Of a stretch of DNA of 44,498 nt, positions 7,457-42,393 are shown in pieces. The position numbers were made by a program, and so were the translations under genes. Source of the stretch: Silicimonas sp. GTDB lineage: Bacteria > Pseudomonadota > Alphaproteobacteria > Rhodobacterales > Rhodobacteraceae. The DNA lies in NCBI GenBank assembly GCA_022340315.1, contig JAJDOD010000128.1:1-44498 (forward strand). Direction: 5' to 3'. Within the stretch, counting starts at the first letter, position 1, and each line of letters starts with the position of its first letter. Under the pieces are notes generated by a model, which saw nothing but the letters and a program-made list of their open reading frames with translations, searched no databases and was not told the origin of the DNA.

Positions 7457-7506
7457 GCGCCGGCTTTGCCGCCTCACACTCCCCCAGAGTATTTGCGGGC
7501 CGATGA
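7457..7506 (+). repeat. dispersed hairpin + GTATTT..GATGA element, copy 1
   Basis: GGCGCCGGCTTTGCCGCC...CCCCCAGAGTATTTGCGGGCCGATGA after the dxs stop; matches other copies in this window. Confidence 0.55.
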
Positions 7507-7516
7507 TCCGGGTGGA

Positions 7517-8047
7517 TCAGGCTGAAGCGTCGGTTCCGAAGATTTTTGCGCCGTGCTCGTCGAGGTAGATCCTGAGCCAGGGCGTGAAGCGCGCCGGGAA
7601 GCGCGCGACCATCTGCGTCAGTTCGCGCCAGGTGACCCAGCGGGTTTCCATCACTTCGTCGGGGTTTGGCGCGATGGCGAGATCAGCCGGCGCTTCCGCG
7701 GTGAAGAGATCGACCAGTTCGTGTTCGATCAGACCTTTGCCGACGTCGGCGCGGTACTCGATCCGGTCGCGGTGAACCGGGGTCAGGCCGGTGATCCCCA
7801 GTTCCTCGTCCAGCCGGCGCAGTGCGCAATCCAGCGGGCTTTCGTCCCACTCGGGGTGCGTGCAGCAGGTGTTCGCCCAGAGACCGGGCGTGTGGTACTT
7901 GCCCATCGCGCGGCGCTGGATCAGCACCTTGTCGCCGGACATGACGAAGACCGAAACCGCCTTGTGCCGGAGACCGCGCTGATGCGCCTCCAGCTTCTCG
8001 ACGGGGGTCAACTGACCGTCGACCCAGGTGGGGATCATGATCGTCAT
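7517..8047 (-). CDS. idi: isopentenyl-diphosphate delta-isomerase (type I)
   Basis: 176 aa, Nudix-like IDI: RRAMGKYHTPGLWANTCCTHPEWDESPLDCALRRLDEELGI. Confidence 0.93.
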   Translation of the reverse strand: MTIMIPTWVDGQLTPVEKLEAHQRGLRHKAVSVFVMSGDKVLIQRRAMGKYHTPGLWANTCCTHPEWDESPLDCALRRLDEELGITGLTPVHRDRIEYRADVGKGLIEHELVDLFTAEAPADLAIAPNPDEVMETRWVTWRELTQMVARFPARFTPWLRIYLDEHGAKIFGTDASA

Positions 8048-14626: not shown

Positions 14627-17955
<3,329 letters not shown>

Positions 17956-21508: not shown

Positions 21509-21540
21509 CGATGGCTCGCACATACACACAGCGTCGGAGC

Positions 21541-22499
<959 letters not shown>

Positions 22500-28101: not shown

Positions 28102-28159
28102 GGGGGCTCTGCCCCCGCCCGCTGCGCGGGCCCCCCGGGATATTTCCGGACCGATGAAG
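28102..28159 (+). repeat. dispersed hairpin + GGATATTT..CCGATGAA element, copy 4 (acsF-puhE spacer)
   Basis: GGGGGC-TCT-GCCCCC, GCCCGC-TGC-GCGGGC, CCCCCGGGATATTTCCGGACCGATGAAG. Confidence 0.75.
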
Positions 28160-42371: not shown

Positions 42372-42393
42372 GCGTATTTTTGAAGAGATGAAG
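42372..42393 (+). repeat. dispersed element core, copy 5 (no hairpin)
   Basis: GCGTATTTTTGAAGAGATGAAG between the ABC ATPase stop and the permease start; matches the copy 3 core at all but one base. Confidence 0.55.

Follow-up and report, generated by a model that had tools for sequence, protein, structure and literature searches.

Five co-oriented copies of a bipartite motif, TATTT-N7-GATGA, occur on the plus strand of the window, the whole 44,498-nt stretch of Silicimonas sp. DNA that was analysed. The genes found at the copies are dxs, bchB, bchH, bchL, acsF, puhE and those of a B6/sugar-type ABC ATPase and its permease (Table 1). All five strings reported by a first-pass annotation were confirmed in the letters at their positions, and one additional match carries one mismatch; with one mismatch allowed, dinucleotide shuffles of the window gave a mean of 0.6 and a maximum of 3 matches. 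The core is a 22-bp, asymmetric arrangement with fixed spacing, consisting of three nucleotides, TATTT, NNN, four nucleotides, and GATGAAG.

Table 1. Copies of the repeat in the window and their component parts.
Feature	Position	Strand	Sequence or composition	Context
Copy 1 core	7487-7508	+	GAG-TATTT-GCG-GGCC-GATGATC	41 nt past dxs stop (7448)
Copy 1 neighbour, idi	7517-8047	-		Convergent; its stop 9 nt from core end
Copy 2 leader hairpin 1	17719-17738	+	TCGCCCGC-TGGC-GCGGGCGA	Inside bchB
Copy 2 triplex-type hairpin	17744-17768	+	CGGGGGC purine arm, TTT loop, GCCCCCG pyrimidine arm, GA spacer, CCCCCA mirror tract	
Copy 2 core	17769-17790	+	GGA-TATTT-CGG-GACC-GATGAAT	In frame, part of BchB linker
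Copy 3 triplex-type hairpin	21539-21566	+	GCGAGGGG-CCAG-CCCCTCGC, then mirror tract CTCCCCG	Between bchH and bchL
Copy 3 core	21567-21588	+	GCG-TATTT-TTG-AAAA-GATGAAA; type B core, type A hairpin	61 nt past bchH stop; 15 nt upstream of bchL (21603)
Copy 4 hairpin	28102-28137	+	GGGGGC-TCT-GCCCCC; second hairpin GCCCGC-TGC-GCGGGC inserted (28117-28131), then C-tract CCCCCG	
Copy 4 core	28138-28159	+	GGA-TATTT-CCG-GACC-GATGAAG	Between acsF (stop 28076) and puhE (28198); 64 nt past acsF stop
Copy 5 core	42372-42393	+	GCG-TATTT-TTG-AAGA-GATGAAG; type B, without hairpin	Between ABC ATPase gene (stop 42359; 15 nt to core) and its permease gene (42396)

Four of the copies had been described as lying within about 35 nt of a stop codon. 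The copies at dxs, bchH, acsF, and the ABC ATPase gene do follow stops, but this distance is true of the hairpin or leader and not of the cores, which lie at 41, 61, 64, and 15 nt, respectively. GC-rich inverted repeats, noted before four of the five copies, are strong at 17772, 21570, and 28141, whereas there is a short stem at 7490 and none at 42375. The shared orientation of all copies and their upstream genes holds within the window but partly reflects its mostly plus-strand genes. The dxs copy, in which a weak, short stem (CGGC-TTT-GCCG) precedes a deviant dialect word (GAG..GGCC..GATGAT), is probably a decaying copy. The bchB copy (TATTT at 17772) does not follow a stop and is read in frame within the bchB ORF (16405-17955), in the linker preceding the C-terminal domain, and the CCAG loop of the bchH copy is common to orthologues from other genera.

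Enrichment extends to the draft genome as a whole (3.33 Mb, 86% complete), in which TATTTN7GATGAA has 73 matches (35 forward, 38 reverse) and the reversed control pattern has none on either strand. The recurrence at Rhodobacteraceae gene ends that the first-pass annotation mentioned was right, and the motif is family-wide. In a sample of 150 genomes drawn from the order, every one belonging to the same family, the GATGAA core reaches about 30-130 copies in some genomes and 0 in others, even within one genus. A sister form, GAAGAAG, is present in several genomes apparently empty for GATGAA, and the tail-independent pattern CCCCRRRRTATTTNNNVVVV matched 135 of the 150 genomes, with up to about 140 copies and with controls near zero. 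The repeat is Rhodobacteraceae-specific and shows no excess elsewhere in the class, no genome of another family having more than five matches in a set of 240 from the class. No Rfam family scored at or above its gathering score in the window, the best weak match (E=1.7) being far under threshold, and no description of this repeat family was found in the literature by title and abstract, most subscription papers being outside the reach of the search.

Within the genome, the three nucleotides before TATTT are coupled to the four nucleotides after NNN (Fisher p=1e-18): GGA occurs with GACC in 43 copies and GCG with AAGA or AAAA in 26, and mixed copies number zero, which makes the two subtypes suspected earlier real and clean. 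NNN is variable, with 23 triplets among about 71 copies, but not uniform, its third base being mostly G. These dialects are uniform within genomes and different between them, usually with one to three words per genome. For example, GAG-CCAA and GCG-GAAC are used in genome G023, GAG-GCAA in G118, GAG-CCAC and AGG-GCAA in G099, GAG-CTAA and GGA-GCAA (preceding GAAGAAG) in G037, AAG-AACC and CGG/GCG-AAGA in G021, and AGG-GCCA in Roseovarius mucosus. Other dialects will escape this census, in which TATTT and some of the tail were kept constant. A Type I restriction site, with which a 3-N8-4 word might be compared, was rejected on the grounds that the second half lacks a methylatable adenine partner in most dialects and that the sites are enriched, not avoided.

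The hairpin that precedes many cores is composed, in order, of a purine arm, a loop, a pyrimidine arm, a short spacer, and another C-rich tract, the mirror image of the pyrimidine arm, as in ACCCCTCC-aga-CCTCCCCA, GTCCCCCC-gga-CCCCCCTG, and GCTCCCCC-tgga-CCCCCTCG. Compared position by position, the tracts of the own genome show 94% mirror identity, which none of 2000 permutations reached; shuffling the partners gives 72%, and shuffling them only among tracts of the same length 82%. The corresponding values for other genomes are 88%, vs 81% and 87% when permuted (reached by 0 and 4 of 2000 permutations). The third block therefore mirrors the second hairpin block beyond chance, as in PIT/TM repeats. 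C-run lengths are equal in 32/34 copies of the own genome and 53/59 of the others (permutation p<=0.0001 each), and where an extra hairpin lies between the tracts they agree in 17/25 copies of other genomes (p~0.0004) and in 5/7 of the own (p~0.055). Asymmetrically placed T residues follow mirror order in 19 cases and Watson-Crick order in 1, on which grounds a Watson-Crick duplex between the purine arm and the second C-tract was rejected. Under the standard triplet rules, C+.G-C and T.A-T triads are available to a strand of this kind, and pH-independent G.G-C and A.A-T triads to its complement. Judged from this code, the hairpin looks built to fold as an intrastrand triple helix. The triplex part is nonetheless dispensable, since many cores occur in genomes G050 (69 GATGAA cores) and G105 (25), neither of which has the CCCC-hairpin form. 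A leader hairpin (TTTCGCC..GGCGATCC) was also observed before the triplex hairpin of type A copies; it recurs across genera with compensating stems, for instance at L158 (G099) and at L036 and L224 (own genome). As reconstructed from sequence, the full form is a leader hairpin, the purine arm-loop-pyrimidine arm-spacer-mirror pyrimidine tract, and the 22-bp core. Neither the triplex (mirror-repeat) code nor the dialect of each species had been noted in the first-pass annotation.

Genomic context was assessed in eight genomes with approximate gene calls, made on sequence stretches by a home-made codon-based gene caller. For the hairpin form, the head-side gene is co-oriented in 78 of 107 cases (p=2e-6) and antisense in 29, and the non-hairpin form is less oriented (42/66 co-oriented, 24/66 antisense). 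Intergenic sites of the hairpin form are convergent in 34 cases vs divergent in 9. In the hairpin form the median distance from a co-oriented stop to TATTT is about 59 nt (quartiles 43-68 nt), while on the tail side the stop of a right-hand minus gene lies at a median of 9-17 nt, and copies tend to abut stop codons in both orientations. Most copies are single. All 11 close pairs are tail to tail, five with gaps of 18-21 bp and six with 109-158 bp, and none is head to head or in tandem. Such short-gap doublets (18-21 bp) occur between convergent genes in the own genome (C15:5179/5216 and C169:41696/41733) and were also seen in other genera. A set of 417 neighbouring proteins from the eight genomes contains no recurrent transposase or recombinase family, and the neighbours that do recur are products of ordinary metabolic genes. 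Two further roles were considered and rejected, namely phage carriage (43 and 8 exact matches in all viral contigs, estimated near chance) and a promoter, for which the scanned sites hold no sigma-70-like pair and which is disfavoured by the location behind stop codons and by the dialect.

Orthologous copies keep hairpin, flanks, and position while the dialect has changed. Among 80 BchB-centred loci from named genomes, 78 were usable for the bchH-bchL junction, and 17 of these carry a copy. A locus-specific loop, GGGGCCAGCCCC, is common to most of them despite different dialects, and presence or absence has changed at least 11 times on the BchB tree. No clean pair of empty and occupied sites, as would reveal the target-site duplication of a MITE, was found, the empty bchH-bchL junctions aligning too distantly. 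Copies 3' of acsF and on the pyrB side are also common to distant genomes with different dialects. An antisense copy between bchN and bchB, about 30 nt upstream of bchB and with its tail near the bchN stop, was seen at seven loci (L089, L098, L105, L116, L118, L127, and L129). In the BchB linker, the element occurs in the same frame in several genera. PRDISG-like peptides in many other BchB linkers look like element remains, and the linker is a repeat sink (16405-17955 in the window, and L094, L114, L116, L118, L121, L124, L127-L129, and L132), with the element-derived peptides PRDISG and GGPAPQTPR and, in another set of species, a different recurrent peptide, GGSMPPE.

The manner of dialect change was examined in 12 orthologous pairs of copies, each with one member in Roseovarius mucosus and the other in Roseovarius sp. 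217. The six pairs that share the four-base word have different bases at 2/18 NNN positions, and the six in which the word has changed at 11/18 (Fisher p=0.0045); the sample is small and from one species pair, and the third N is only partly free. Over 200-300 bp of flank, pairs with the same word and pairs with different words have comparable identity. At bchH, AGG-TATTT-TTC-GCCA has become GAG-TATTT-CGG-GAAC with nearly identical flanks. The bchH-bchL copy compared between two Roseovarius loci (L083:15139 and L087:15153) differs by at least 8 changes within a 15-bp core, the flanks being nearly unchanged. Because the free NNN turns over together with the dialect, the comparison suggests short-block (en bloc) replacement rather than drift at each recognised base.

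Several known repeat systems share part of this architecture. REP/REPIN sequences with their RAYT transposase are short palindromic extragenic repeats that form per-genome subfamilies and inverted doublets at preferred spacing, with species-specific sequence (PMC3116915), and the present repeat is likewise multi-copy and extragenic, with subfamilies, inverted doublets, and species-specific sequence. However, doublets are here a minority (the five short-gap pairs), the core is asymmetric and non-palindromic, and the hairpin can be dispensed with. Moreover, RAYT (Y1 transposase) has 0 matches in the own genome (86% complete) and is found in 5/40 family genomes and 3/21 copy-rich ones, being absent from the other 18. 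The REP-like character proposed in the first-pass annotation therefore stands as far as the repeat is dispersed, extragenic, and patchy, with inverted doublets, but a REP/RAYT system is rejected because of the missing transposase. In-frame tolerance, here in the BchB linker, is a likeness of another kind: Rickettsia palindromic elements are repeats tolerated in frame inside protein genes. Only one in-frame site was seen here.

The closest architecture is that of PIT (Hoyne and Maher) and TMECO (Holder et al. 2015, PMC4666352) repeats, which also have three consecutive mirror-symmetric blocks suited to a one-strand triple helix and are dispersed, intergenic, patchy among close relatives, G/C-rich, sometimes paired in inverted orientation, and without a transposase. 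TMECO has the block order C-G-G, a near-invariant sequence, and the consensus CCCTCNCCC-N3-6-GGGNGAGGG-N3-GGGNGAGGG (PMC4666352). In contrast, the top strand here reads G-C-C (bottom G-G-C), the third strand covaries with stems of differing sequence, and a 22-bp dialect core, often accompanied by a leader hairpin, is joined to the motif. As block order and sequences differ and the consensus does not fit, the repeat is a relative in kind and not a TMECO; the main text of PMC4666352 makes no mention of the Rhodobacteraceae genera searched for.

The explanation that is preferred here, with about an even chance of being correct, is a REP-like dispersed DNA repeat architecturally related to the intrastrand-triplex (PIT/TM) repeats. 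A single strand exposed by replication, transcription, or repair would fold into the triple helix. The most plausible candidate is the bottom strand, rich in G, which would form a purine-motif triplex of G.G-C triads that does not depend on pH, and a lineage-specific trans-acting factor would recognise the core beside this structure. Replacement of cores, or re-insertion at sites that already exist, rather than per-gene selection, would maintain the copies and keep them alike, and the 3'-end preference would mark where insertion harms least. At the sequence level, the features on view are the mirror code, the dialect core, enrichment, stop-side placement, avoidance of divergent sites, and high single-locus turnover. 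Against this account, neither the RAYT nor the neighbour scan found a transposase or other driver, the bchH-bchL, acsF 3', and bchB linker positions are common across genera beyond the prediction of pure mobility, and the E. coli TM repeats form a triplex in vitro with none seen in vivo (PMC4666352).

In the main rival account, the core is a binding site for a Rhodobacteraceae DNA-binding protein, which would be of the nucleoid, boundary, or roadblock type; its specificity would shift between lineages and the conserved sites would coevolve with it, the hairpin or triplex being an accessory that opens or stalls DNA. Speaking for such a protein are the 22-bp motif, asymmetric and constant in spacing, in which NNN is free and TATTT invariant, its two coupled contact words, the persistence of cores without hairpins, and the positions common across genera; but the turnover of NNN with dialect would be unexpected under point-mutation coevolution, the turnover of presence and absence is high, the existence of in-frame and antisense copies points away from a gene-specific role, and no candidate protein was found. 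It is thus held to be possible but doubtful. Still less probable is the option, raised earlier, of a non-canonical terminator, pause, or 3'-UTR processing signal, in which an RNA hairpin is followed by TATTT as a U-rich release or RNase E-like cleavage site. The distance of the hairpin form from co-oriented stops and the excess of convergent sites agree with this role, which nevertheless fails because of anatomy and placement: the stem ends 8-12 nt before TATTT instead of directly adjoining a U-tract, some cores lack a hairpin and most type B copies a stem, antisense copies adjoin stops, and copies lie inside operons (bchH-bchL, bchN-bchB) and, once, inside bchB. RNA folding z-scores are only about -1.3, the species dialect downstream of TATTT is left without explanation, and E. 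coli PIT repeats are without terminator activity (PMC4666352). A simple terminator is therefore unlikely.

A self-recognition tag, by which a dialect would mark own DNA for uptake or exchange and spread by biased transfer, is very improbable. A genome carries tens to about 140 copies here, not many hundreds, coding sequence hardly ever contains one, and the core changes over a short stretch while flanks stay species-typical; we also know of no uptake specificity in Rhodobacteraceae. What recommends the tag is its resemblance to the DNA uptake sequence (DUS) dialects described for Neisseriaceae (PMC3630211), which are variants of one shared word, specific to a genus or species, that occur close to gene ends and in inverted pairs; compared with these, the present repeat has far fewer copies, a long bipartite word, and a nearly exclusively extragenic location.

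If the preferred reading of a triplex-related dispersed repeat is followed further, some 50-150 sites with a lineage-specific bipartite word beside a triplex hairpin, rewritten en bloc, might represent a self-propagating or self-labelling class of element with a postulated reader/writer enzyme, a suggestion offered tentatively and with low confidence. Intrastrand-triplex repeats have been on record for bacteria since about 2000, with no function assigned to them to our knowledge. A third strand that covaries with its hairpin over many stems is comparative evidence for selection on the triplex itself, the dialect core offers a handle for finding a protein that acts on it, and the question can be put to a direct test in sister species that differ in dialect. 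For annotators, the common Rhodobacteraceae hairpins of this type are unlikely to be simple terminators.
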